Below are positions 6,672-32,598 of a stretch of DNA of 32,624 nt, piece after piece. The notes under the pieces were generated by a model. The model worked only from the letters and a program-made list of their open reading frames with translations. It did not search any database and had not been told where the DNA came from. Location of the stretch: positions 1 through 32,624 of the forward strand of contig CAJXNM010000030.1 in the NCBI GenBank assembly GCA_913057135.1, read 5' to 3'. The translations under genes were made by a program, and so were the position numbers. Each line of letters starts with the position of its first letter. Position 1 is the stretch's first letter. This DNA comes from an uncultured Halieaceae bacterium (lineage in GTDB: Bacteria > Pseudomonadota > Gammaproteobacteria > Pseudomonadales > Halieaceae).

Positions 6672-8861
6672 TTATAATTGTTCCGGTCCCACCATGTTCG
6701 ACTTGGCTGCCTGAAATAACATCCATATTGGCAGGCCTGAGGGTATCTCTGGCTGTGAGGCCGCGCGGAGGGGATCCGACCCTTCCTCAAACTCATCCTT
6801 GTCGGACCACCCGTCCCCATCGGAGTCTCGTTTATTCGGATCAGTGCCTAACAATAGTTCCAAATTGTTACCCAGCCCATCAGAGTCGCTGTCCTGACTC
6901 TCGTCCGAATCATCCGGGAGGTCATAGGTATTATCGCCTACCCCGTCACCATCGCTATCTATCGTTTCATTCGGATCGAATGGAAATGCATCCGCGTTGT
7001 CTCCTACACCATCACCATCGGTGTCGAGAGTCTCCGTAGAATCCAGCGGGAACACGTCCTCGGTGTCAACCACGCCGTCCCCGTCGTCATCTGTATCGGC
7101 GTTATCACCAATACCGTCGCCATCGGTGTCCAGGGATTCGCCGGGATCTAGGGGGAAGGCATCATCAATGTCAAAAACACCATCATTGTCATCATCGGTA
7201 TCGGCATTGTTGCCGGTGCCATCACCGTCGGTATCAACCGATTCCGAAGGGTCGAGAGGGAAGGCATCGCTGATATCGGCAACATTGTCTTCATCACTGT
7301 CTTGCGGTGCTAATGCATAGACCCGCACGTGGCCGGAGGCAGTGCCATTGCCGTCATTCAGCCAAGCACCAATCGCCACCGTGGTGCCGTCGCTGGACAG
7401 GGCGACCGAAGATCCTGATTCATCATCCGCGGCTTCCCCATCAATATCAGTGCCCTGCTGCACCCATGCGCTGCCATTCCATGTGTAGATACGTGCGTGG
7501 CCGGAGTTACTACCATTACCATAAGGGGCACCAATCGCCACCGTTGTGCCGTCGCTGGACAGGGCAACCGACCAGCCTGCCAAATTATCGGCGGCCTCAC
7601 CAACAATATCAGCGCCCTGCTGTACCCATACGCTGCCATTCCATGCATAAATCCGTACGTAGCCGGAGGCAGTGCCATTGCCGTCATTCAGCCAAGCACC
7701 AATCGCCACCGTGGTGCCGTCGCTGGACAGGGCGACTGACGATTCAGGCGCAACATGACCATCTTCAATGTCTGCGCCCTGCTGCACCCAGGCGCTGCCA
7801 TTCCATGTATAGACTCGCGTGTGACTATTGCCGCTACCATTAAAAAGGCCACGAATCGCAACTGTGGTGCCGTCGTTGGACAGGGCAACCGGGTAGCCTA
7901 AGTATTCATTCGCCTTTTCACCATCAATATCTGCGCCCTGCTGTACCCATGCGCTTCCATTCCATGTGTAGATGCGCACATGGCCGGAATCACTGCCATT
8001 GCCGCCGTTATTAAAAGGGGCACCAATCGCCACCGTGGTGCCGTCGCTGGACAAGGCAACCGAAGACCCTGAGTAATCACCCGCGGCCTCACCATCAATA
8101 TCTGCACCCTGCTGCACCCAGGCGCTACCATTCCATGCGTAGATACGCACGTGGCCAGAGTTACTGCCATTGCCGTCGTTCCTATGAGCACCAATCGCCA
8201 CCGTGATGCCGTCACTGGACAGGGCGACCGAGAACCCTGATTCATCACCTGCGGCCTCACCATCAATATCTGCACCCTGCTGCACCCATGCGCTGCCATT
8301 CCATGCATAGATGCGCACGTGGCCGGAGCCACTGCCATTGCCATTATTGAATCGAGCCCCAATGGCTATCATGGTGCCGTCGCTGGACAGGGCAACCGAG
8401 CTGCCTGATGCATCGCCTGCGGCCTCACCATCAATATCGCCTCCGAGTTGGAGCAAATCGTCAATAACCGCGCAACCATTAAGCAAAACATGGCGCCCGG
8501 CAGATGTGTTCGGGCATTCATCGCTGTTATCGCTCACACCATCGTCATCGGTATCGCGCTGGCTGGGGCTGCAGCCTTCGCCGTTGACGTCGGCGATTTC
8601 GCTTACTGGTGTCAAAGGACAAACATCGGTACTGTTCGGCATGCCATCATCGTCGTCGTCATTGATGGCTGCCGACACATTTACAGATGTCGCGAAGGCG
8701 AGCACGAGAAAAGCCTTCATGCAAGCGCAAAAATATACTCTTCCACTGAGACAAGCTGAGCAGCCAAAAGGTAGCAATGACTGCAGACAGTCACTTATCG
8801 ATGACTCAGATTTTTTAGCATTCCTCTGCCTACGGAAGCGGAATTCAGCGTAAAGTGACAT
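6672..8861 (-). CDS. Secreted repeat protein: seven beta-propeller-like repeats plus TSP3-type calcium-binding repeats
   Basis: This large protein (729 residues from the chosen start) appears to be exported. A short N-terminal acidic, cysteine-bearing TSP3-like section is followed by seven repeats of about 55 residues, each with VALSSDGTTVAIGA and RIYAWNGSAWVQQGADIDGE, as in FG-GAP/integrin-type seven-bladed propellers. Then come five to six DTDGDGxGDNADTDDD-type repeats, typical of calcium binding and extracellular linkers. Repeat 4 is the most diverged (VALSNDG, AIRGLF). The start is uncertain: AGGAG sits five bases before the ATG at 8861, but the best signal peptide (MKAFLVLAFATSVNVSAA) begins at an internal ATG at 8720 without a good ribosome site. 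The role, perhaps surface adhesion or scaffolding, is unknown. Confidence 0.85.
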   Translation of the reverse strand: MSLYAEFRFRRQRNAKKSESSISDCLQSLLPFGCSACLSGRVYFCACMKAFLVLAFATSVNVSAAINDDDDDGMPNSTDVCPLTPVSEIADVNGEGCSPSQRDTDDDGVSDNSDECPNTSAGRHVLLNGCAVIDDLLQLGGDIDGEAAGDASGSSVALSSDGTMIAIGARFNNGNGSGSGHVRIYAWNGSAWVQQGADIDGEAAGDESGFSVALSSDGITVAIGAHRNDGNGSNSGHVRIYAWNGSAWVQQGADIDGEAAGDYSGSSVALSSDGTTVAIGAPFNNGGNGSDSGHVRIYTWNGSAWVQQGADIDGEKANEYLGYPVALSNDGTTVAIRGLFNGSGNSHTRVYTWNGSAWVQQGADIEDGHVAPESSVALSSDGTTVAIGAWLNDGNGTASGYVRIYAWNGSVWVQQGADIVGEAADNLAGWSVALSSDGTTVAIGAPYGNGSNSGHARIYTWNGSAWVQQGTDIDGEAADDESGSSVALSSDGTTVAIGAWLNDGNGTASGHVRVYALAPQDSDEDNVADISDAFPLDPSESVDTDGDGTGNNADTDDDNDGVFDIDDAFPLDPGESLDTDGDGIGDNADTDDDGDGVVDTEDVFPLDSTETLDTDGDGVGDNADAFPFDPNETIDSDGDGVGDNTYDLPDDSDESQDSDSDGLGNNLELLLGTDPNKRDSDGDGWSDKDEFEEGSDPLRAASQPEIPSGLPIWMLFQAAKSNMVGPEQL
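7330..8450 (-). repeat. Seven near-identical tandem repeats of about 160-170 bp inside the propeller gene
   Basis: The segment encoding VALSSDG recurs seven times at spacings of about 160-170 bp, with strong nucleotide conservation (for example the GGTGCCGTCGCTGGACAGG block). High DNA identity between copies, not only protein similarity, suggests recent duplication or gene conversion, so copy number could change by recombination. Confidence 0.85.
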
Positions 8862-11215: not shown

Positions 11216-12101
11216 ACGTATCGGGGTCATCGGCGTACCCGGTAAATGGTCAACCGAGTGTTTGGCCGATGCGCTGGAGTCACTTACCGGCTTTCGGCTG
11301 GTCATCGACATCAGCCGCGTCAGCCTCGACCTGGCCAATCGTGCACTTTGGTACGACGACATGAACCTGTGCACCCTCGATGGCCTGGCTATCAAAAAGA
11401 TTTCGAGCGTATACGGCCCCGAAACCCTCGAGCGACTCGATTTACTGCGTGTAGCGGAGGCATCCGGGGTGCGCTGTTTCAGTCCGGTACGCAGCGTGCA
11501 TGGCCTGGTGGATCGACTGAGCTGCACCATCTCCTTGGGCAATGCTGGCATTAGGATGCCCGAGACAACGATCACGGAACGCATCGATGTCGCGGCCAAT
11601 GCTGTGCGTCGCTACGGCTCAGCCGTACTGAAACCCCTGTTTTCAACAAAGGCCAGGGGGATGGTTGTCCTAGATAACACCCTCGCCCCAGCCGAGCTAA
11701 ATCAGCAGTTATCTGAATTTCATCGGCGCAATCCGATTATGTACATACAGAAGAAACATGAATTATCCGGCGAGGACTACGGTGTTGTGTTCCTGGGTAA
11801 GCGCTACCTGTGCACCTACTCACGGGTAGGCGCAAAGGACACTTGGAACACGACCATCAACAGCGGTGGTAAATACCGCGCCCATGAACCATCAGCAGCT
11901 ATCCTTCAGCTGGCACAGCGCGCGCGGGATGTGTTCGACCTTGATTACACCACCGTCGATGTCGCCGTCACGGAAGAGGGTCCTGTGGTCTTTGAAGTGT
12001 CGGCGTTTGGTGGGTTCAGGGGCGTCAAAGAAGGGGCAGGGCTCGACGCCGCCTCGCTATATGCGGATTACATGCTCGATGAGTTAGGCGCATCAACATG
12101 A
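11196..12101 (+). CDS. ATP-grasp enzyme, GAK-system type
   Basis: This 301-residue protein resembles RimK/glutathione-synthetase-type ATP-grasp ligases, which activate a carboxylate as acyl phosphate and join it to an amine or thiol. The C-terminal metal/ATP site is visible: D255 in TVDVAVTEEG, then E267 in FEVSAFGGFRG. The usual ExN is ExS here (S269). The start is GTG at 11196, preceded by AAGGA at good spacing and lying inside the end of the kinase gene. It shares an ATGA overlap with the HprK-related gene downstream. I recognise it as the ATP-grasp member of the set TIGRFAMs names GAK; substrate unknown. Confidence 0.87.
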   Translation: MTFTQPRRIGVIGVPGKWSTECLADALESLTGFRLVIDISRVSLDLANRALWYDDMNLCTLDGLAIKKISSVYGPETLERLDLLRVAEASGVRCFSPVRSVHGLVDRLSCTISLGNAGIRMPETTITERIDVAANAVRRYGSAVLKPLFSTKARGMVVLDNTLAPAELNQQLSEFHRRNPIMYIQKKHELSGEDYGVVFLGKRYLCTYSRVGAKDTWNTTINSGGKYRAHEPSAAILQLAQRARDVFDLDYTTVDVAVTEEGPVVFEVSAFGGFRGVKEGAGLDAASLYADYMLDELGAST

Positions 12102-23741: not shown

Positions 23742-23792
23742 TTTGGTGGAGCCAGGCGGGATCGAACCGCCGACCTCAACACTGCCAGTGTT
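23742..23792 (-). repeat. attL: attL: 51-bp direct repeat of tRNA-Ala 3' end
   Basis: These 51 bases are identical to 32548-32598. They correspond to tRNA-Ala nucleotides 28-76 (anticodon arm through encoded CCA) plus two following bases. The match stops at the next base on either side. This is the displaced original 3' end of the tRNA gene. Confidence 0.95.
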
Positions 23793-23827
23793 AAAAATTT
23801 ACACTATTTAAAGGGTTTTTGAGGATC

Positions 23828-23846
23828 TGGGTAGCTTCTGGGTAGC
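23828..23846 (+). promoter_or_regulatory. Paired TGGGTAGC motif, candidate integrase arm-type site (left)
   Basis: TGGGTAGC occurs at 23828-23835 and 23839-23846, one helical turn (11 bp) apart, 36 bases inside attL. The same pair with the same spacing and orientation occurs at the other end (32413-32431). Tyrosine integrases of the lambda class bind such arm-type sites, so this is the probable left arm. Confidence 0.6.
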
Positions 23847-24015
23847 ACATTTGCAATCCAAACTAGGACAGCAATGCTTTTAAAATGCGCAGTACACGCA
23901 ATCCGCGCTTTACCTACTTTTTCTGCTAGCCTTGCATTTCACCGACTAATTCACCTTAGTTTGGTGAAAAAACTTATCTTGAAAAAAACGGGTGGGCTGT
24001 AGCCAAATATCAATA

Positions 24016-24573
24016 ATGTGGAAGCTAGCCATATTACCGCTGGTATTCATCGCCGTAACAGGATGTGGAGAGAAAAACTCCTACGGAGAGCACGTACCAA
24101 AAAACCTCAAACCAAGAGTGCTTAAGTTTCTTGATTGCTACGCGGCACCTATCTTTGTCGGCTATACCATGATCGAGAGAGAACCGATGTTCGAGCAAAA
24201 GCTGCTAGTCTTTGACACCGCTAACACCGCGATGCATTTCTCTTACTTTAGCGAGCGTGACAACGCTCAATCTTTCCAGCGCCTCGATCTAAACTCGGAG
24301 TGGCGCTACATGAACGTCGATAAACTTGACTCAAACTTACTTCGATCTCAAAACTTCTTTGAAGTAAACGGCCTGCTCTCAACAGGTATTGAGTTTCGCC
24401 GAGATACACTTAAGGTCCAAGAATTCGATCAACATCGTCGCTCTCAAAAGTATGGCTGCGAAATACTTCCCACGCCTGAGGCCGTGGAAGCTAAGCGTCT
24501 AGAAATCTTGCAAAAGCAGAAAAAATACGAGGCCGATGAGGTAGCGAAGCAAGAACAGTCGCGGCAAATTTAG
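24016..24573 (+). CDS. Putative lipoprotein of the mobile element
   Basis: This 185-residue protein has a lipoprotein signal peptide (MWKLAILPLVFIAVTGC, lipobox VTGC), so it should be acylated and placed in the envelope. The mature part is charged, has two further cysteines and ends in a basic/acidic helix (EAKRLEILQKQKKYEADEVA). The ATG at 24016 gives the signal peptide; a GTG at 23992 would add eight residues that weaken it, and neither has a clear ribosome site. It is on the strand opposite most element genes and near the left end, the usual place for accessory cargo. Phage-borne lipoproteins often block superinfection; that role is only a suggestion. Confidence 0.72.
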   Translation: MWKLAILPLVFIAVTGCGEKNSYGEHVPKNLKPRVLKFLDCYAAPIFVGYTMIEREPMFEQKLLVFDTANTAMHFSYFSERDNAQSFQRLDLNSEWRYMNVDKLDSNLLRSQNFFEVNGLLSTGIEFRRDTLKVQEFDQHRRSQKYGCEILPTPEAVEAKRLEILQKQKKYEADEVAKQEQSRQI

Positions 24574-24600
24574 CTAACTAACGCAAGTTAAGAGGCGTGT

Positions 24601-24786
24601 TTACCATTTCATTTCAGCTTCAAGCGCCTTGCTATCGAGTTGATCTTGAACAGCATCACCAGTGATACCGCGCTCCTTAAGCGCTTCTGCCAGCTTCTTC
24701 ATCGCGCTACGCTCTAACTGCTGAACTCTTGCGCGGCTAATCCCCATCTCACGCGATATTTCTGCGTGGGTCATTGCATAGTCCAT
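24601..24786 (-). CDS. Stand-alone sigma-70 region 4-like DNA-binding protein
   Basis: This 61-residue protein is almost only a helix-turn-helix: MTHAEISREMGISRARVQQL followed by ERSAMKKLAEALKER, matching region 4.2 of RpoD-type sigma factors, which reads -35 elements and meets RNA polymerase. No region 2 is present, so it cannot be a full sigma factor. AAGGAG lies six bases before the ATG at 24786, fixing the start; a longer frame from 24825 is unlikely. It sits downstream of the capsid gene and converges with the lipoprotein gene. Such fragments may act as transcription regulators or compete with host sigma for polymerase. The fold is confident, the role is not. Confidence 0.8.
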   Translation of the reverse strand: MDYAMTHAEISREMGISRARVQQLERSAMKKLAEALKERGITGDAVQDQLDSKALEAEMKW

Positions 24787-24949
24787 CGTTCTCTCCTTTC
24801 GAAGAAAGCTCCTTTGCGCCACCACCAGCGGAGCAAACTGGTTGGCTCACCCCAGCACCGGCCCGTATTCCGGCTGTAGGCGTGTGGCTTCCGCGTTTTG
24901 TGCACCGAGCGGTCATCGGCTAAGGAAGGGCTATGTCCGGCCCCGCACG

Positions 24950-24983
24950 AAAATAAATGCCGGCTTTTGGCGCAGTGCCGGCA
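24950..24983 (-). terminator. Terminator after capsid gene
   Basis: Read leftward, TGCCGGC (24983-24977) and GCCGGCA (24964-24958) form a perfect 7-bp stem with a 12-base loop, followed by TTTATTTT. It lies 29 bases after the capsid stop and should separate capsid from the sigma-like gene. Confidence 0.75.
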
Positions 24984-25011
24984 ACTGCTGCTAGCCCTTG
25001 CGAACTAACTC

Positions 25012-26712
25012 TTACAGGCTCACATCCGCGTCGGGATGGAACGCAAATGCTTCTGTATGGCGTAAGCCAATATCACAGTGCATAAAGGCCGCAACCCGTA
25101 TGGTGCTGGTCTGTAGGTCGGTGTAGGGGTCGACGATAATTTCCAACCCCCCCCACTGGCCGAGCAATACATGGCTCAGATCGCCATAGATGATCGCCGA
25201 CAGATCAGTACCAGCGCCCTTGGTGAGATCGCTGGGGACGTTGTTAGAGACAATCACCTCACGCCCAGCGATACCCTCGCCGCTAGTGCTGTCCAGCACA
25301 AACACGCTATCGGTAGCGGCGATGCGCTGCTTTTGGCGGAGATATGCCTCGGTGGCACTGTTGATAATGAAAGCGCCGCCTGTATCAGCATTGGCTGAAG
25401 CAACAGCCTCGATCAGCCGTAGCAATCCAGTCCAGCTGGGCTGACCGCCGTCTGGTGTTCCCAACGCAATAGACGTCACGCCGGCAGTATTCAAAATGCC
25501 AGTCGGCTCATTGTCGATGCCGCTGCCGTTGATAACAGCCCGCTCCATCTCGAGAGATAGAACAGTGGCTAAGTCTCGGCGAACGATAGATTCGACATTG
25601 GGTTGAGACTGCGCGAGTAGCTTGCGTGAGTAGCTCACCATCGCTGCTAGCACCTCTGGGCGCAGCACCACGTTATCAAAGCTAGGTGTACTTGCAGTGA
25701 TAGTGCCTTGTTCGCTGTACCAGCCAGCAGTGGCCGTGCCTGCTAACCTAGGGATCGCAATATCACCGCTTAAACCAGACATCACAGTACAGCGTCCAAG
25801 CACTGAACTCTGCTTGTATAGGAAGTCGATGAAGCTGGATGCCATATGGTCTGTTCCAACCATTGACGGTGCCCCCGTCTTGGTAATGTCGCGCGTCAGG
25901 ATTTCATTAGGCACGACAAAGCTATTCGAGCGGGTTGTCTGGTTGCGGGTCTCCCGCAGGACTGCCTGCTCAAAGCTAGCGTCTGACCAATCGCCGGTGG
26001 CTTGTGCAGTGATCGCCCGAGCAAAACTGAATTGTTGCGCCTCTTGTCTTGTAAGGCCCAAGGGGGATTCAAACGAAATACCAAGAGCTCCTTTGCTCCC
26101 AATCTGATCGAGTACAAATGATCTGAACTGCTCAATGCTTTCACCATCGCGCAGTGCTTTTACACCCTCGTTGGTTAAATTGTGTCGCGCTGCGAGCTCC
26201 ATGATCTCAGCAGCGTTACGTTGTACGGCCTTTACATCGCCGCGTGATTCAGACTTGTTTTCCATTTGGCGTTTACCTCTCTTGGAAATTCTTGCGAATG
26301 GATCGGCTGGCACTGATACAACCGACAGCTCGTGTGGCTGCCATTTCGTAACCCGTGTCTCGCCATCCGGCCCATTTTGTGTGTCTTGAATTGAATATCC
26401 GACGCTGACATGCTGAAGCACGCCGTCGGCAATATCTTTGCCTACCCGCAGGGCTTGCTCTGAATCTGATAGATACACCTCGGCGCGAAGTTGGCCATCG
26501 GCGATTGTTGGATTGCGAGCCACACCGATGGGCAGCTGCTTCATCTCATGAAGCACCAGCACAGGCAGCGGGAAGCGTGTGAGATCGACAGCATCAGCAG
26601 TAATTGCAAGAATCTCTGATCCGTAACTGCGTGGGACGGGATATTCCGTCGCAATTACAGCGTCAAAGACACCATCCTGTAATGCGCGATTTTCTTTCGA
26701 TTGGTGGGGCAT
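25012..26712 (-). CDS. Prohead protease-HK97-type major capsid protein fusion
   Basis: This 566-residue phage head protein has an N-terminal HK97-type prohead protease (about residues 1-150), with the catalytic histidine region PVLVLHEMKQ and serine region LQHVSVGYS. A linker/delta-like helical region (about 165-240) is followed by an HK97-fold major capsid protein with typical segments (AAMVSYSRKLLAQS, LEMERAVINGSG, EPTGILN). The protease would process the capsid during prohead maturation. AGGAGGAG lies before the ATG at 26712, fixing the start. It is the only structural gene in the element: no portal, terminase, adaptor or tail gene is seen. Its own terminator and upstream gap suggest separate, probably induced, transcription. 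Confidence 0.93.
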   Translation of the reverse strand: MPHQSKENRALQDGVFDAVIATEYPVPRSYGSEILAITADAVDLTRFPLPVLVLHEMKQLPIGVARNPTIADGQLRAEVYLSDSEQALRVGKDIADGVLQHVSVGYSIQDTQNGPDGETRVTKWQPHELSVVSVPADPFARISKRGKRQMENKSESRGDVKAVQRNAAEIMELAARHNLTNEGVKALRDGESIEQFRSFVLDQIGSKGALGISFESPLGLTRQEAQQFSFARAITAQATGDWSDASFEQAVLRETRNQTTRSNSFVVPNEILTRDITKTGAPSMVGTDHMASSFIDFLYKQSSVLGRCTVMSGLSGDIAIPRLAGTATAGWYSEQGTITASTPSFDNVVLRPEVLAAMVSYSRKLLAQSQPNVESIVRRDLATVLSLEMERAVINGSGIDNEPTGILNTAGVTSIALGTPDGGQPSWTGLLRLIEAVASANADTGGAFIINSATEAYLRQKQRIAATDSVFVLDSTSGEGIAGREVIVSNNVPSDLTKGAGTDLSAIIYGDLSHVLLGQWGGLEIIVDPYTDLQTSTIRVAAFMHCDIGLRHTEAFAFHPDADVSL

Positions 26713-27140
26713 AAGAAAACTCCTCCTAGCTGCGCCCACATAAAAAAACCTACTCTTAATCGAGCAGATATCTGTGTTTTCGCAGCCGTCGGCGTCCCCA
26801 CCTAGGCGATCGGTCCTTGCCAGAACCCAGCCATATTAGTATCGCTGGCCTATCGGGCCATTCAAGTAAAAAGTTGTGAATAACCCAGTGCAAAACCCTG
26901 TGTAGCCATAATCTCTTTTTCCGATTTGCGGCTACCCTTGCAGTGTCAAAATCCTGCGCCAGCTACGACCCCGTAATGGAAACGCTGGAAAGTAACTGGC
27001 AAGCGGACCGTGCGTTTTACCAACCACATAAGCTAATAGCGTATTCCGTTGAAAAACGAGCCCGTCTATACTGCTCTGAGAGCATGGCGTTAAAAGCAAG
27101 CGCCTCGGCATTGAGTAAAAAGACTTTAAAGGAGAAAGCA
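26713..27140. other. Divergent promoter region between capsid and second lipoprotein
   Basis: This gap should hold the leftward capsid promoter and the rightward lipoprotein promoter. It includes a small inverted repeat TGGCC-N5-GGCCA (26846-26860) and one TGTGAATAA (26875-26883), which matches the DnaA-box consensus on the other strand, though a single copy proves little. The open frame from 26943 is not supported before the ATG at 27141. Confidence 0.4.
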
Positions 27141-27587
27141 ATGTTTTCGCGTGAGGCTTTGCGATACTCGATCGTAGTGTGCACCCTAGGAATTTTTAGT
27201 GGTTGCGCAGCCACGCGTCAGGCCGAAGAGTATGGATCTAACACTGCGGAAACTATCTTTGCGTGCCCTGGTGAAAATTGGACATCTAAAAAGTTAAATG
27301 AAACTTTTTGCTTAATGACTAGCGTGAAGAGCCCGTATAACCATGTATTAGCAGAGGACACGGCCGAAGCATATGGAGACTCTGTACTCGTCGGTGTAAC
27401 GCTAGGCATATCAACGCTCTTTGACGGGGATGTCCAAGAAAAATGGCTTGCAGCTGCCAAGGAGTTTGCCAACGACGAGTACGGCGACGGTGCTCGCGTA
27501 ATCAATTTCAGACAACACAATCAATATAAGTCTTATGCTTTTGAAGTGATTCCACCACCTGATTACGAAAATGATACTGAGAAATAA
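27141..27587 (+). CDS. Second putative lipoprotein of the mobile element
   Basis: This 148-residue protein has a lipoprotein signal (SIVVCTLGIFSGC, lipobox FSGC) after a short basic N-terminus. GGAG six bases before the ATG at 27141 sets the start. The mature domain is small, with two cysteines (FACPGENW and NETFCLMTS) that may pair, and an acidic end. It lies alone on the rightward strand between the leftward capsid and replication genes, which marks it as accessory cargo with its own promoter. No family is recognised. An envelope role such as exclusion of other phages fits its type and place, but nothing in the sequence proves it. Confidence 0.75.
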   Translation: MFSREALRYSIVVCTLGIFSGCAATRQAEEYGSNTAETIFACPGENWTSKKLNETFCLMTSVKSPYNHVLAEDTAEAYGDSVLVGVTLGISTLFDGDVQEKWLAAAKEFANDEYGDGARVINFRQHNQYKSYAFEVIPPPDYENDTEK

Positions 27588-27602
27588 GGGTGTTCAAAGC
27601 GC

Positions 27603-27764
27603 CTAAATAGCGAGCCAAACCCAGCAGAAGTTAATGCGGCCATCGGGGGCGAACTCGCGGTGCATCTGTTGAAGCGCGATCTGGGCGTACCCCACTGTTG
27701 GGTCGATCAGTTGTCTCGCCTTCTCGACCATTGGCTCTAGGTCATCTCGGTATTGGTAGTTCAT
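27603..27764 (-). CDS. 53-residue protein at the end of the replication operon
   Basis: This short leftward gene (start MNYQYRDDLEPMVEKARQLI) has an AGGAAA ribosome site at good spacing before its ATG and ends in a natural stop at 27603. The sequence is mixed and plausible: one amphipathic helix, then a C-terminal segment INFCWVWLAI. It lies after the candidate origin and the primase-helicase gene and converges with the lipoprotein. No family is recognised. Confidence 0.6.
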   Translation of the reverse strand: MNYQYRDDLEPMVEKARQLIDPTVGYAQIALQQMHREFAPDGRINFCWVWLAI

Positions 27765-27871
27765 GTTCGTTTCCTACATTGGATTGTTGTTTCTTGTTCC
27801 CGTCGGTGTCACCCCCGATAGGTGCCATCGTTGGGGTTTGCAACAATTTGTTTCGTCGGGGTCTAAAAGAT

Positions 27872-28009
27872 GGGTCGGCCAAATGGGCCAAGTGGGCAAA
27901 GTGGGCAAACTCTATAGCGATAGGGGTTTTAGCCGTTTTCAACAAAACTGCGCAGGCGCTGGGTTGCCCAGTTTGCCCGTTTGCCCCACCCCCTTTTTTT
28001 GTGGGCAAA
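27872..28009. other. Iteron-like cluster, candidate replication origin
   Basis: Tandem 9-mers of the form AARTGGGCM run from 27881 to 27907, preceded by a weaker unit at 27872. GGGCAA occurs at 27894, 27903 and 28003 on this strand and three times inverted (TTGCCC at 27964, 27973 and 27981). Between the two arms lies about 55 bp with A/T runs. Direct and inverted iterons beside a primase-helicase gene are typical of satellite and plasmid origins. This is inference; no initiator binding is shown. Confidence 0.5.
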
Positions 28010-28013
28010 GTGG

Positions 28014-30113
28014 TTAGCAAAACTCGCTGACCCATTTTGTTGACACTCGGAACACGGCGGCGTTATTGCTCATTCGGTCATATGTCTGGGTGAGTAATCC
28101 GACTTTTACAAATTGGCTGAGCGAAGTGCGCAGAACCTTCTCTGTAAGACCATTCTTATTCAGAGATTTGTCATCTAACGCGCTCAAAAGCTCTTGCCGA
28201 GATGTGTTGAGATTCGCATGACCGATTCGATCTTTGATAAACAGCCACTCATCCTTACGGCGCTCGATGGCCTCCCTAACCTTCGCCTTTGCGAGGGCAT
28301 GATCTGCCCCCGCCTCGTCAACGAAATGAACGCTGGCCAGCATTTCTTCGTAGGTGTGAAACTCAGACTTGGTGTACTCGACAGCGAACTTCATCATAAC
28401 GCGCCCACGATCTTTCACGTTCGAAATGACAACTTGTTGCCTTGATTCAGTGCGATCAGTAGCGGCCTGAAAGGCATACATGATGTCGATGTCATTGGCG
28501 ACATCCTGCACACCCTCAAAGACAACATTGCCATCAGCATCGAGGTGTTTATTCGCATGACCGAGTAAGATCACAGTGCCCCCGTTAGCTGTTATTCGCC
28601 TCAGCACCGTGAAAAACTCCTTGGTGCGGTCCTTGTGCATCAGGTCGCAGAATTTCTTGAGTGTGTCGAAGATGAAGAGCTTACCCTCGCACTGCTTGTG
28701 GTCAGCCATCGCCCGCAGCGTTTTGACGAGATCAACTGGACCCTTGATCGGCGATTCAGCAGGGGCAAAGGTCGAACTCAATTGGTTGATGCCCCAATCT
28801 TGGGCCAGATCAGCCTTTTGGTCGTAGCCCTCTAAGCTGTCATCTTCGTTAATGTAGAACACATTGTCGGGACGTAATCGCCCATCGTTAATCTCTCGCC
28901 GCACTAGCGCGAGCATGACAAGCGTTTTCCCAGCGTTTGGTTTGCCATACCAAACTGACATCGAACCGCCTGGTGCGATGTCCTTTATTGCAAAGTCTGT
29001 GTTCGTGACGAGACGCTTGATCTCGTCTCGATTGGCAGTCGAGGTAATCGCCAACAAGCGATCCAGCGGTGTTAGCTCGCCTACAAGGCCATCGGACGCA
29101 TCCTTGTTAGTCTCATCATCGAAGTCAGTATCGCTGTAGTCACAGCACACCGGCTTATCAAGGCGCAGCGCATTGAGTGCCGCATCACGATCATTTCCGT
29201 ATTCGTAGAAGCAAAATAAGTCGAACGCATCGCCGTAACAGCCAGAGGTGCAAGGTGCGCCTAGCCCAGCGGCTGAATCGCTGCCTGACAAGCTGACCCA
29301 ATAATCGCCGAAGTCTCTCGTCGCGAACGATCCACTCTGCTGCTGTGGTGACTGCCAGCTTGATGACTCACCTTTGCGTCTGTAGCCATACCCCTCAAGC
29401 AAGTTAGCAATAGCGTTTTTCTTGTTGAACGTATCAATGGGACTATCTGACTTGTGGGACGCTAGCTGCCTATTGGCAATCTTGGCTGCGGCCTGTTGCT
29501 TCGCCTTTTCTACCGCTCTCACTTCTTCTTCGCGCAGCACTAGAGCCCGCTGATAGAGATTCGATTGCTTGAGATCAAACACCTCTGCCGTGACGATCTC
29601 ACTTTTATAGAAGCCGCCCTTTGCCTTATTGGGTAGAAAGACTGGTTGGCCTGTGCACTCCAGCTTTCGGTCACATTGAATTCCCTGCTCAGCCATTGCA
29701 TCGAATGCTGCTCGCTGGACGAAGCTATACATATCGCCACTGAGTGGCTCACGAAGTGGTACTAAATAGCGCCATTTCCTGACGATCTCACTCGCTCGGC
29801 GACTGCTGTAGATGTAGCACAGCACGTTGCCGTAGACCGAAGCGATGGCGCGTTTCACCTCATCAAGCGCTGGACTTCCGACATCAATGTCGCCCGCCAG
29901 CATGACGTAATGTCCATGCTCGCTCTGAACGGCATGAACACGCCCATCGAACTCGTGATAGGTCGATGGAATGATGAATTTCGCTTCATTCTTTCCGACG
30001 GACTGGGGATTCTTCAGCATCTCCTCTATCTCCAGAATAGAGATGGTGTCATAGGGTGCGTTCGCTTCTATGTGCGTATCGTACAAGCCATAAGCGAGTA
30101 GAACGTCACTCAT
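28014..30113 (-). CDS. Primase-helicase-type replication protein
   Basis: This 699-residue protein likely starts element replication. The N-terminal half resembles an archaeo-eukaryotic-type primase: D75-I-D77 in LAGDIDVGSP could hold the metal ions, followed by YSSRRAS and KWRYLVPLREPL. The C-terminal half has a RecA-like helicase core with Walker A at residues 390-397 (GKPNAGKT), a Walker B-like LFIFDTLKKF and an ILLGHANKH segment, as in RepA/DnaB-like hexameric helicases. A winged-helix-like tail ends the protein. GAGGAGG lies six bases before the ATG at 30113, which also overlaps the upstream gene by eight bases; the open frame to 30251 is not used. Helicase is confident, primase moderately so. 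Confidence 0.88.
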   Translation of the reverse strand: MSDVLLAYGLYDTHIEANAPYDTISILEIEEMLKNPQSVGKNEAKFIIPSTYHEFDGRVHAVQSEHGHYVMLAGDIDVGSPALDEVKRAIASVYGNVLCYIYSSRRASEIVRKWRYLVPLREPLSGDMYSFVQRAAFDAMAEQGIQCDRKLECTGQPVFLPNKAKGGFYKSEIVTAEVFDLKQSNLYQRALVLREEEVRAVEKAKQQAAAKIANRQLASHKSDSPIDTFNKKNAIANLLEGYGYRRKGESSSWQSPQQQSGSFATRDFGDYWVSLSGSDSAAGLGAPCTSGCYGDAFDLFCFYEYGNDRDAALNALRLDKPVCCDYSDTDFDDETNKDASDGLVGELTPLDRLLAITSTANRDEIKRLVTNTDFAIKDIAPGGSMSVWYGKPNAGKTLVMLALVRREINDGRLRPDNVFYINEDDSLEGYDQKADLAQDWGINQLSSTFAPAESPIKGPVDLVKTLRAMADHKQCEGKLFIFDTLKKFCDLMHKDRTKEFFTVLRRITANGGTVILLGHANKHLDADGNVVFEGVQDVANDIDIMYAFQAATDRTESRQQVVISNVKDRGRVMMKFAVEYTKSEFHTYEEMLASVHFVDEAGADHALAKAKVREAIERRKDEWLFIKDRIGHANLNTSRQELLSALDDKSLNKNGLTEKVLRTSLSQFVKVGLLTQTYDRMSNNAAVFRVSTKWVSEFC

Positions 30114-30498
30114 AAAACGCCTCCTCATTCGATGCATCAACGACACGCCATTCGCTTTTTGGATCCATCGGGATAAAGCCGTCGTGCACCATTTCTTTAA
30201 TGGGGCGTTTGAAGTGACGCGAGCCGCTGTAAAGGAACAGAGGGGAGCCATTGCGTCTCTTTACAAGCATGATTGCCTGTCCTATCGCATCGCTGACTCT
30301 GTGCATTGCGGGCGCGTGGTAGTAGCTCCAAATTTCTCGCTCAATGTCGAACACCATGACAGTAGCAATGGCTCGCACCTTGCGCCCAGTTTTGACCCCT
30401 ATCTTCATTGCTGGCTCTAAGTCATGTCGGGCCTTTTTGTTGCGGTATTTCGCCACCTCGAAGATGTAAATGGGGCACAGTGTTTTTTCATCACTCAT
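30106..30498 (-). CDS. Replication-operon protein of unknown function
   Basis: This 130-residue basic protein has no membrane segment. Its sequence (ARHDLEPAMKIGVKTGRKVR, RPIKEMVHDGFIPMD) suggests a compact alpha/beta nucleic-acid-associated domain, but no motif is recognised. GGAGG lies seven bases before the ATG at 30498, which overlaps the previous stop as ATGA. It ends inside the start of the primase-helicase gene, so the three genes are translationally linked and probably work together in element replication. Confidence 0.75.
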   Translation of the reverse strand: MSDEKTLCPIYIFEVAKYRNKKARHDLEPAMKIGVKTGRKVRAIATVMVFDIEREIWSYYHAPAMHRVSDAIGQAIMLVKRRNGSPLFLYSGSRHFKRPIKEMVHDGFIPMDPKSEWRVVDASNEEAFYE

Positions 30499-30743
30499 GC
30501 TCGATCCTCCATCGCTTGCATAGCCTCCGCGATGACGAACTCGCGGTACGTACAGAGCCAGCGCCACAGATCGGGGTGGTGTTGATGAACGAAAGGGTTA
30601 GTGCACAGCCATAGCAAATATGATGGATCGCTATCCAGAAGCGTCCAAAGCGTTTGGCCTGCGTGTTTGCCGAAGCTGATCGTGGTGTAACGATCAGTCG
30701 GGCGATGAGTGGGGGTATGCCACTCTGATGCTTTACATGTCAT
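30495..30743 (-). CDS. Small protein with FGKHxGxTL...YLLWL motif (DUF3820/ExoX-C-like)
   Basis: This 82-residue protein contains ISFGKHAGQTLWTLLDSDPS followed by YLLWLC. It resembles the small domain found in DUF3820 proteins and at the C-terminus of ExoX-like exonucleases, which usually reads FGKYKGKxL...P.YLxWL. Such domains occur in phage and plasmid replication modules and may bind DNA or a nuclease. AAAGGAG precedes the ATG at 30743. It is the first gene of the leftward replication operon and is coupled to the next by an ATGA overlap. Confidence 0.75.
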   Translation of the reverse strand: MTCKASEWHTPTHRPTDRYTTISFGKHAGQTLWTLLDSDPSYLLWLCTNPFVHQHHPDLWRWLCTYREFVIAEAMQAMEDRA

Positions 30744-30852
30744 CTCGTGACTCTCCTTTTAAGAGAGCCGCGCGGAAGCATCTAAGCGGGTTGGCTGCTA
30801 GAATTGACGGGCAGATTCGTCCTCTGCGTCGCCGAAGGTCATGGCATCCAAA

Positions 30853-30890
30853 GAGCCGCGTTACGGACTGCTCCCGTAGCGCGGCTTTTT
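30853..30890 (+). terminator. Strong hairpin with T-tract, between alpA-like gene and replication operon
   Basis: AGCCGCGTTACGG and CCGTAGCGCGGCT form a 13-bp stem with one G-T position, followed by TTTTT on the rightward strand. It therefore terminates best rightward, although no rightward gene precedes it. Leftward, it lies directly after the AlpA-like stop and may act weakly. It could end a small regulatory RNA. Confidence 0.65.
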
Positions 30891-31092
30891 ATTGGTGTGG
30901 GTTTGCTTCAGCTAGGCTGCTGTCGATGTCGATAATGTTGCCGCGCTGCCCGAGCGAGATCACTTTAAAGCGACCTTTGTATATACGGTTGCGGATGGTC
31001 TGCTCGGTCATATCCAGCAGGCACGCCGCTTCGCGCACCGACAGATAGCGTTTACAGCCGGGAAACAATTTAGATTCAGGAATCACCGCCAT
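30889..31092 (-). CDS. AlpA/excisionase-type helix-turn-helix regulator
   Basis: This 67-residue protein has a MerR-like winged helix (RYLSVREAACLLDMTEQTIR, then NRIYKGRFKVISLG) as in AlpA and phage excisionases of the HTH_17 class. In satellites such proteins control integrase or excision and switch on the replication operon. GAGGA lies about nine bases before the ATG. It sits between the integrase and the replication operon, the standard place for such a switch. A perfect inverted repeat upstream (31255-31272) may be its binding site. Confidence 0.85.
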   Translation of the reverse strand: MAVIPESKLFPGCKRYLSVREAACLLDMTEQTIRNRIYKGRFKVISLGQRGNIIDIDSSLAEANPHQ

Positions 31093-31172
31093 GACGTCTA
31101 ATCCTCATTTTGAGGGCCACGGCTTCGCCTTTCAGTTCGACTAGGAGACAACCGAGACCCTAATTAAAAAAG

Positions 31173-31256
31173 TCATCGTTTTCTCTCCAATTTCTTGTTT
31201 AGGGCTTCTTTGCGGGAGTTCAACCACGTCTCAGCGGTGGCTGCGCGTCTGCCCAC
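31173..31256 (-). CDS. Possible 27-residue peptide or gene remnant
   Basis: This very short leftward frame has a GTG start and GGAG five bases upstream; it reads like real coding sequence (ATAETWLNSRKEALNKKLER). It lies between integrase and the AlpA-like gene. It could be a small peptide gene or the tail of a lost gene. I rate it low. Confidence 0.25.
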   Translation of the reverse strand: MGRRAATAETWLNSRKEALNKKLERKR

Positions 31257-31272
31257 CTCGACTCCACGAGGT
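31255..31272. promoter_or_regulatory. Candidate operator upstream of AlpA-like gene
   Basis: ACCTCG (31255-31260) and CGAGGT (31267-31272) form a perfect 6-bp inverted repeat with six bases between, about 165 bases upstream of the AlpA-like start and just downstream of the integrase stop. It may be a regulator site for the excision/replication switch, or the stem of an RNA hairpin. Confidence 0.35.
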
Positions 31273-31316
31273 CAATCAACACTCTACACGACGCCATGAT
31301 TCCCAGCAACATCTCA

Positions 31317-32399
31317 CTATTCCACTGAAGCGCCTAGTGCTTTGTATGTAGCTTCTATGTCAAGCAGCGCCCGTCGTAACACGTCGTCATCGGGGCGACC
31401 TTGGTAGCCTGACGTTACTGTCGACAACGCACTGCGGTGATTCAGCAAGTGACTGACCACATGCTGTTGGACTCCGGCCATTACTGCGGTGCTTGCAAAA
31501 GTGCGGCGGCAATCGTGCGGCGACAAAGTAAGGCCAGTCTGCTTCTTCAAAAACTTTGTCATGGGCTTTGCACATTTCACACCAAAGCCACCGGCCCAAG
31601 CGGTCATTGCTGCATCGGTGGCTGGTATACGATGCGTCGTGCCATTCTTGGTGTCAGGCACAACAAACTGATCACCCAGCTGCTCTGCCCTAAGCGCCTC
31701 GTTACGCCTGAAGCCAGTAAGGAGTAAAAATCTGAGCAAGCGCCCCCACGGCTCTGGTAAGTCTGCATTCCAAGCTGGGGCGATCTCGGTCGCAGTCAGT
31801 CGCCGATCTCGCGGCTGCTCTTTGTGCCACGTCTTAGCAACACTAACCGCCTCTGTAGGCCATTCGGGAATATCGTGACCCATTGCTCTTCCGAAACGAA
31901 TGACTCGGCGGGCTACTTTTAGTGCGGTGTTCGCTGCACTGGGCCCGTAATCAAGGGTAATGCTGTGATGGATATCTGAAATCTCTCGTGGCGAAGCAGG
32001 CGCTTTGTCGTAAGTGTGTTCGGCCACGCGCTTAATCGCTGTTCGGTAGTTTGTTATGGATTGGGTCTTGAGGTCTGACCTTTCCAGCATATCCTCACAC
32101 AACTTCGTAAGACTTGGCGCTAATACCGGTTTCTCGATCTTTTCGCTCCAAATGCCGTCGATCATGTCATTCAATTCGCTGGCGTTGGGGACGTCTCGCT
32201 TGTTGATAGCAATCGACGCTCGGCGCTGTTTGCCCTCGTGTCGGCGGGTAGCTGTGAGCGTCACCTTGTGCTTGGAAACCCGCAGTCTGATATTGGGGAT
32301 TGGAAACCCATTCCTATCGAGTAGCTTGTACTCCACGCGATCGTCTCCAGCGGAGTTAATAGCGGCCTCGATTGACGATTTGTTGACCTTCAATTCCAT
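31317..32399 (-). CDS. int: Tyrosine-recombinase integrase
   Basis: This 360-residue site-specific recombinase carries an N-terminal arm-binding region (about 1-70), a core-binding SAM-like region (about 80-170) and a catalytic domain. The active-site residues are visible: arginine in LLTGFRRNEALRAEQL, HxxR in LSPHDCRRTFAS, and the nucleophilic tyrosine in STVTSGYQG. It would catalyse integration into, and with an excisionase removal from, tRNA-Ala. GAGG eight bases before the ATG at 32399 supports this start; a GTG at 32408 overlaps that GAGG and is unlikely. The start lies about 150 bases from the tRNA, and the right paired TGGGTAGC motif overlaps its leader, so the integrase may repress itself. 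Confidence 0.95.
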   Translation of the reverse strand: MELKVNKSSIEAAINSAGDDRVEYKLLDRNGFPIPNIRLRVSKHKVTLTATRRHEGKQRRASIAINKRDVPNASELNDMIDGIWSEKIEKPVLAPSLTKLCEDMLERSDLKTQSITNYRTAIKRVAEHTYDKAPASPREISDIHHSITLDYGPSAANTALKVARRVIRFGRAMGHDIPEWPTEAVSVAKTWHKEQPRDRRLTATEIAPAWNADLPEPWGRLLRFLLLTGFRRNEALRAEQLGDQFVVPDTKNGTTHRIPATDAAMTAWAGGFGVKCAKPMTKFLKKQTGLTLSPHDCRRTFASTAVMAGVQQHVVSHLLNHRSALSTVTSGYQGRPDDDVLRRALLDIEATYKALGASVE

Positions 32400-32412
32400 C
32401 AGAAACACCTCA

Positions 32413-32431
32413 TGGGTAGCTCGTGGGTAGC
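32413..32431 (+). promoter_or_regulatory. Paired TGGGTAGC motif, candidate integrase arm-type site (right)
   Basis: TGGGTAGC occurs at 32413-32420 and 32424-32431, 11 bp apart, in the same orientation and spacing as the pair at 23828-23846, and is followed by the same AC. It lies immediately upstream of the integrase ribosome site, so binding could both form the recombination complex and block integrase expression. Confidence 0.6.
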
Positions 32432-32497
32432 ACCAAACGAGTATATAGGGTGTTTTCGGGTGCTCTCAAGCAGTGTTGGGGTCGGCTCAAAAGGGCA

Positions 32498-32520
32498 CAA
32501 AAAAAGCCGCAAAAGCGACT
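32498..32520 (-). terminator. Element-borne terminator downstream of tRNA-Ala
   Basis: Read leftward, AGTCGC (32520-32515), a TTTT loop and GCGGCT (32510-32505) form a 6-bp stem with one G-T pair, followed by a run of Ts. It lies 29 bases after the encoded CCA of tRNA-Ala, inside the element, and would replace the native terminator displaced to 23706-23734. Confidence 0.75.
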
Positions 32521-32547
32521 CAACATGTTGTTTTTTCAGAAGTTTTG

Positions 32548-32598
32548 TTTGGTGGAGCCAGGCGGGATCGAACCGCCGACCTCAACACTGCCAGTGTT
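32548..32598 (-). repeat. attR: attR: 51-bp repeat within intact tRNA-Ala
   Basis: These bases are identical to 23742-23792 and supply the 3' part of the functional tRNA from the anticodon arm to the CCA end. The identity starts next to the anticodon loop, a usual crossover region for tRNA-targeting integrases. Confidence 0.95.

Follow-up and report, generated by a model that had tools for sequence, protein, structure and literature searches.

We analyzed a 32,624-nucleotide stretch of DNA from an uncultured Halieaceae bacterium (GenBank assembly GCA_913057135.1, contig CAJXNM010000030.1; hereafter the window), which carries an integrated element of 8.8 kb between two attachment (att) sites. 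The sites form an exact 51-bp direct repeat, which is not due to chance: attL (23742-23792) is a copy of the 3' part of a tRNA-Ala gene, and attR (32548-32598) overlaps the intact tRNA-Ala(ggc) called by ARAGORN at 32550-32625 on the minus strand. Another contig of the same genome (C52) begins with the last 75 bases of the window and continues past the intact tRNA. In three genomes (G006, G002 and G100) the site is empty: their tRNA-Ala gene is unbroken and comes with the terminator sequence of the left flank. In G006 the right-hand neighbour gene is, by eye, the same as that of the window. The element encodes a tyrosine integrase (363 aa, 31317-32408, minus strand; PF00589, E = 6.9e-7; phrog_1, E = 5.9e-24) and a single recognizable virion gene, a 575-aa fusion of an S78 prohead protease with an HK97 major capsid protein (25012-26739, minus strand; PF04586, PF05065, phrog_617). 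The fusion apart, none of the ten ORFs (open reading frames) scanned against Pfam and PHROGs resembled a family of portals, large terminases or tail proteins, and the sole packaging match among them, a small terminase (TerS) profile on a putative regulator, lies at noise level (E = 0.09). The repeats, the integrase and the fusion as the only virion gene had all been described in an original prediction made from the letters alone, and all three hold.

The remaining genes complete a compact layout. The putative regulator, a 67-aa protein with a helix-turn-helix (HTH; 30889-31092, minus strand), had been called an AlpA-like switch; the label rests on the HTH and on a gene position like that in phage-inducible chromosomal islands (PICIs), whereas its Pfam matches (Sigma70_r4_2, 1.4e-4; HTH_17, 4.4e-4) fall below the cut-off and phrog_66 gives 0.015. 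The gene in the same place in a sister element, L021, fits a PF05930 match of 2.3e-12, as assigned, partly by inference, from the family tally. The predicted 'FGK-domain' gene is present (82 aa, 30495-30743, minus strand), but its only match is to an ExoX-like C-terminal domain (ExoX-like_C, PF20600, 4.6e-4), again below the cut-off. It is accompanied by a 153-aa protein (30106-30567, minus strand) with no Pfam family and a best PHROGs value of 0.29. In the proposed primase-helicase (28014-30251, minus strand) the helicase-type AAA_25 ATPase stands above the cut-off (PF13481, 7.6e-7; phrog_6357, 1.9e-19), but the primase part is weak (phrog_239, 0.008). At the end of this replication gene, three TGGGCAAA copies and an imperfect inverted repeat (27893-28009) are suggestive of an origin, a function that the repeats point to, and the ORF covering the copies (27742-28035) is probably no true gene. 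A 53-aa ORF (27603-27764, minus strand) resembles the first half of the 120-aa pre-capsid gene of L021 (alignment A4; blastp, E = 2.9e-6), which is akin to genes of 129-130 aa in two further sister elements, L020 and L019. When this ORF and five others of the window were rescanned, no virion family appeared in Pfam, searched completely, or among the 25 of 31 PHROGs families listed. Between the 53-aa ORF and the capsid gene lies a 214-aa gene (26943-27587, plus strand), lipoprotein-like by eye and of no family, at an opposite-strand cargo position that is also occupied in L019 and L021. On the far side of the capsid gene follow a 74-aa sigma-70 region-4-type HTH protein (24601-24825, minus strand; PF04545, 4.8e-9), which the gene after the L021 capsid resembles (blastp, 1.6e-8), and, adjoining attL, a 193-aa gene (23992-24573, plus strand), likewise lipoprotein-like by eye and without a family.

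Relatives of the element were found within the family. A capsid match at E <=1e-20 occurred in 6 of 140 Halieaceae genomes, and the same reduced layout was present in all seven Halieaceae loci with usable context: the window, L019, L020, L021, L023, L025 and L048. Three of these elements sit at different sites of one genome, that of the window. The second, L019 (7.7 kb), has 24-bp att repeats at 83% that look tRNA-like by eye, where ARAGORN called no tRNA; the third, L020 (7.5 kb), has 45-bp repeats at 96% at a tRNA-Gly. L021, from a genome of the same genus, lies beside a tRNA-Ser, and no att repeat was found there. The remaining loci come from three other genera: L023 (8.8 kb) has a perfect 45-bp repeat at tRNA-Cys, L025 (9.9 kb) uses tRNA-Ala(ggc) as in the window with 62-bp repeats at 95%, and L048 gave neither a tRNA call nor an att repeat, its contig stopping 968 bases past the capsid gene. 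Thus att repeats of 24-62 bp were found in five of the seven loci, and sister elements delimited by them measure 7.5-9.9 kb. Four loci were kept out of the count: L022 lies on a 4.2-kb contig and lacks the protease part, L026 and L028 encode capsids of other types, and L027 is a prophage by eye.

No ORF of at least 30 aa in the seven loci matched a portal, large terminase (TerL) or tail protein of our reference panel. A family scan of 51 selected ORFs, 25 from the window, L019, L020 and L021 and 26 from L023, L025, L048 and L026, took in all of Pfam and, for PHROGs, the 25 of 31 and 25 of 27 families listed; it left out the integrases, the capsids and the L019 and L021 helicases, and its assignment of families to ORFs is partly inferred. 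Among the matches listed there was no virion family other than small terminases. By panel and family tallies, L023 and L025 encode a Nu1-type TerS, and none was found in the window's own group of four elements. The recurrence of this layout in relatives with no detected portal, large terminase or tail bears out the original view of a satellite-type integrated element rather than a prophage remnant.

The two sister elements in the window's own genome offer a close comparison. The fusions of L019 and L020 share 93% protein identity at a synonymous divergence (dS) of ~0.8 with dN/dS of 0.06-0.07, and the gene is under purifying selection; a DNA match between their replication regions is limited to a 76-bp stretch. 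A leader of ~70 bp before the capsid gene (L019:10723-10793) is identical in the two and more conserved than the coding DNA, and a terminator-like block lies 3' of the gene. The leader may be a promoter, a packaging site or an RNA element; in six other elements it had only a 13-base match, at chance level. An AlphaFold model of the capsid-adjacent gene of L020 (pLDDT, the predicted local distance difference test score, of 70) had no match in the PDB at E 0.001.

Several neighbouring features of the sister loci were also recorded. Directly adjoining the L021 element, across its tRNA-Ser, L021:283-3498 holds another integrase-like gene (by eye) and another helicase, similar to that of the window (blastp, 9.5e-20), possibly a neighbouring satellite or remnant, and opposite-strand ORFs at L021:7871-8215 and 11592-11948, one inside and one near the element, gave apparent matches to Rap1a-type immunity proteins. 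In L025, a defence gene of the bSEFIR/TIR type lies close to one of the att repeats (L025:12107-12877; PADLOC bSEFIR, 3.9e-76), and an IS3-like insertion was recognized by eye at ~7187-8382. Small elements with different lone capsid types were seen at L026:7500-17000, with a P27-type TerS and a zeta-toxin-type kinase (by eye and from tallies), and at L028:2040-8401, where a serine recombinase was recognized by eye. Satellites with a lone capsid gene may have originated with capsids of several types.

Outside Halieaceae, the order search matched 9 of 390 genomes at 1e-40 and the class search 6 of 369 at 1e-30 (own genome included), together giving 12 loci. With the same panel, seven of these (L024, L049, L050, L051, L053, L054 and L116) had both portal and TerL, and L119 gave a TerL match, its capsid lying in several frames; L118 and L120 are left unclassified. 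In genome G456, L052:5500-15400 holds an island at tRNA-Ser resembling capsid-forming PICIs (cf-PICIs), with capsid, protease, portal, HNH and terminase genes recognized by eye. L117, from another family of the same class, is an 8.95-kb element with a perfect 47-bp att repeat at tRNA-Arg; it encodes an integrase, two HTH-type proteins (one by eye), a helicase and the fusion, as well as a 415-aa protein and a minor tail Z protein. The 415-aa protein (L117:7851-9098), whose matches are chiefly to the first part of tape-measure families, is possibly a tail-length modifier or a remnant, and L117 as a whole can be explained either by a satellite's capture of late genes or by partial decay. The original prediction had named portal, terminase and tail remnants in related copies as a finding that would refute it; the seven Halieaceae loci gave no portal, TerL or tail match, and the more distant L117, with two tail-type genes, shows part of that pattern. 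The integrases of the eight elements are at most 37% identical, and this over partial stretches only.

Both domains of the fusion protein are recognized (PF05065, 3.4e-40; PF04586, 1.4e-5; phrog_617, 1.7e-100 for the whole), and H64, S112 and E137, consistent with the catalytic residues of S78 proteases, show no variation across all 37 aligned rows, a set that omits the divergent long row L054, in which two of the three are absent as aligned. The linker between protease and capsid is 137 aa in the window and 123-137 aa in its group of four, compared with 159-176 aa in the remaining four satellites and 152-224 aa in 29 phage rows (Mann-Whitney p 0.0017, with rows taken as independent despite relatedness); the window's group alone therefore falls outside the phage range. 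Residue 31 is Thr in 8/8 satellite proteases and Ser in 29/29 phage rows; with 10/10 further rows, some of them near-copies, Ser was found in 39/39 phage or prophage rows. Among four solved structural relatives of the capsid is one listed as Rcc01687, presumably the capsid of the Rhodobacter gene transfer agent.

In the full-length tree the eight satellites stood apart from the 29 phage rows at 100/98, as they had in earlier versions with 26 rows (94/95) and 35 rows (99/98; long row L054 dropped). Splitting the domains placed this signal in the protease, where the satellites again grouped together against the phage rows (136 columns, 99/97), and not in the capsid, where they were scattered and L117 joined two IMG/VR phages at 95/92. 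We have therefore withdrawn the satellite capsid clade that the full-length trees had appeared to give. Approximately unbiased (AU) tests, chosen afterwards, rejected a single satellite capsid clade (p 0.036) and, for the protease, the grouping of L117 with phages (p 0.031); they did not reject one clade of the seven Halieaceae capsids (p 0.115). The protease grouping may stem from long-branch attraction in the 136-column set. The trees hint that satellites keep their protease and exchange capsid domains.

With the L021 capsid, IMG/VR yielded 22 loci, 17 of them with a portal match; L077 and L082, which begin inside the capsid gene or shortly before it, have head-tail and tail genes, while by eye L091 and L092 are phages (large upstream ORFs of L091 look like terminase and portal, and L092 is near-identical where listed), and L094 is cut upstream. 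The L019 capsid found one weak phage-like contig, L073 (26%), and alignments A1 and A4 had no confirmed match in IMG/VR. When genome contigs were searched, nothing was confirmed with the window capsid and only the L021 contig with alignment A1. Portals of PF05136 and PF04860, found as controls in 3 and 4 of 14 genomes, are absent from the window's own genome. Across the family, PF05136 turned up in 2 of 140 genomes, both outside the six with a capsid match. As no portal of these two families is resident, the helpers are likely infecting phages.

Lone capsid genes in satellites are already established, and what follows on known systems holds for the parts of the published accounts drawn on here. 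The original prediction had assumed that classical PICIs encode no capsid; this is contradicted by the major capsid gene in 21 of 29 reference Gram-negative PICIs (PMC10111431), by the capsid homologue Ccm of SaPIbov5 (PMC8569155) and by the capsid genes of PmCI172, which forms small heads, and EcCICFT073 (PMC6092414). Its reading is nearly right, and it overestimated the distance from known systems. The window element shares with Gram-negative PICIs such as EcCICFT073 and PmCI172 an integrase, a replication gene, a largely unidirectional arrangement and the often lone capsid gene, has a putative counterpart of their AlpA-type regulator and a candidate for the origin that follows their replication gene, and differs in the fusion to an S78 protease, the marine Halieaceae host and the TerS not found in the window's group. 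Ccm is a capsid-protein homologue, the only protein of its Staphylococcus aureus pathogenicity island (SaPI) needed to redirect the helper shell; it fills the pentamers of small isometric shells and loses a shorter N-terminal segment than the helper capsid protein, 87 against 128 residues (PMC8569155). The window protein resembles it as a lone HK97-type homologue with a shortened segment before the capsid domain (a linker of 137 aa against 152-224, in comparison with phage rows and not its own helper), but Ccm belongs to a Gram-positive SaPI, with no fused protease in the description drawn on, and mixed shells have been demonstrated there, against genes alone here.

Other satellites combine some of these features. 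The Vibrio satellite-plasmid PISP TG93 encodes capsid E, a head maturation protease and a small terminase (PMC13230959); it is likewise a small marine element with capsid and protease and no tail genes, but its capsid is PF03864-type, its protease separate and no integrase was detected on it. The published cf-PICIs also encode a head protease and a capsid, of the PF05065 family, but the portal, connectors, both terminase subunits (TerL and TerS) and HNH that they carry (PMC10690885) were not found in the window element. Phage-inducible chromosomal minimalist islands (PICMIs), small marine satellites with an AlpA regulator, have concatemers packaged and, unlike the window element with its capsid fusion, encode no capsid-remodelling genes (PMC10803314). 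Charybdis elements (PMC12324425), considered as a further candidate, were set aside as they are without an HK97 capsid. Among the papers listed on satellites in Halieaceae or with a prohead protease, mostly non-subscription texts, none described the fused kind. P4-like satellites encode Sid and Psu and are not known to carry a capsid gene; the window element, by contrast, has one, and the Sid and Psu families are absent among its matches. Apparently new here are the protease fusion, the short linker in the window's group, the satellite Thr in place of the phage Ser and the hint of capsid-domain exchange.

Taken together, the element is probably a PICI-like satellite, organized like a small Gram-negative PICI, whose fusion protein diverts or replaces the head shell of a helper phage. 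Upon infection by the helper, the element would excise and replicate, and the fusion protein would join or replace the helper's head shell, with the helper's portal, terminase and tail used by the element. The fused protease and short linker would allow shell subunits to be assembled and matured on the element's own terms, the heads would be fitted to the ~8-kb element, and fewer helper genomes would be packaged. A capsid-redirecting, PICI-like mode with a self-processing capsid protein is most likely; the shell may be replaced whole or mixed, the genes fitting either. A bolder version is conceivable but doubtful: that there is a satellite-type protease-capsid protein with one protease lineage (Thr 31, shorter linker), whose capsid domain is swapped with phages as helpers change, each element building its own small shell around the helper portal so that one gene replaces the whole shell.

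A number of observations count against a PICI-like satellite with such a capsid function. Neither a helper phage nor a packaging site nor a particle came to light, and no such lone-capsid satellite was found in IMG/VR. In the published work, a PICI capsid gene is reported to be dispensable for transfer (PMC10111431), and interference by EcCICFT073 persists after deletion of its capsid or decoration gene (PMC6092414). At 8.8 kb the window element is below the 10-20 kb quoted for Gram-negative PICIs (PMC10111431); because it agrees with that family only in part, its size falling outside and its regulator and primase matches being weak, we class it as PICI-like. L117 carries two tail-type genes, and the reference panel missed the cf-PICI-like module of L052, so that the absence of other virion genes depends on the family scans of selected ORFs. 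Finally, the window's pre-capsid ORF is short and the L019 helicase lies in two overlapping frames (L019:7548-8563), either a real break or an assembly error; single elements may therefore be partly decayed.

These last features would also suit a tailed prophage reduced to its integrase, replication genes and capsid, as would the homologues of the fusion in phage records, the IMG/VR matches, most of which are phage genes beside a portal, and the short tape-measure and minor tail genes retained by L117. Such decay is nevertheless very unlikely to have left an identical reduced set in 7/7 Halieaceae loci with context, three copies in one genome at different sites with divergent integrases and different replication genes, and a capsid gene under purifying selection, in a genome with no resident portal of PF05136 or PF04860. 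The purifying selection in L019/L020, together with the shorter linker and the satellite-specific protease residue, also argues for a role in the satellite and makes it quite unlikely that the capsid gene is surplus material from a helper, acquired in the late-gene region and doing little or nothing itself. That account draws on the capsid being the commonest late gene of Gram-negative PICIs while reportedly not required for transfer (PMC10111431), on the other late genes held by L117 and on the several places that satellite capsid domains take in the capsid-only tree.

We also regard as unlikely, if less so, that the fusion is a weapon that poisons head assembly of incoming phages and has no part in transmission of the element. 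Capsid redirection by Ccm suppresses its helper (PMC8569155), and a sister element carries the bSEFIR/TIR defence-type gene, but the mobile organization of the elements and their separate integration events indicate that they are transmitted, and a poison has no clear need of the conserved candidate protease triad. Use of the shell by the host, in the manner of an encapsulin or a gene transfer agent, is highly improbable: the fusion is the only recognizable virion gene and Rcc01687 is listed among the four solved capsid relatives, yet the gene sits in elements with integrases, with att repeats in 5/7, and is found in few Halieaceae genomes (6/140 at 1e-20).

On the PICI-like satellite interpretation, lone-capsid satellites would thereby be extended to marine Halieaceae. 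The genome studied here would also offer a natural experiment, with three elements at three sites that carry two near-alike fusions and one diverged fusion alongside different replication genes. If the protease indeed stays with the satellite while the capsid is swapped, these proteins would show which part of a head protein has to fit the helper and which makes it a protein of the satellite.

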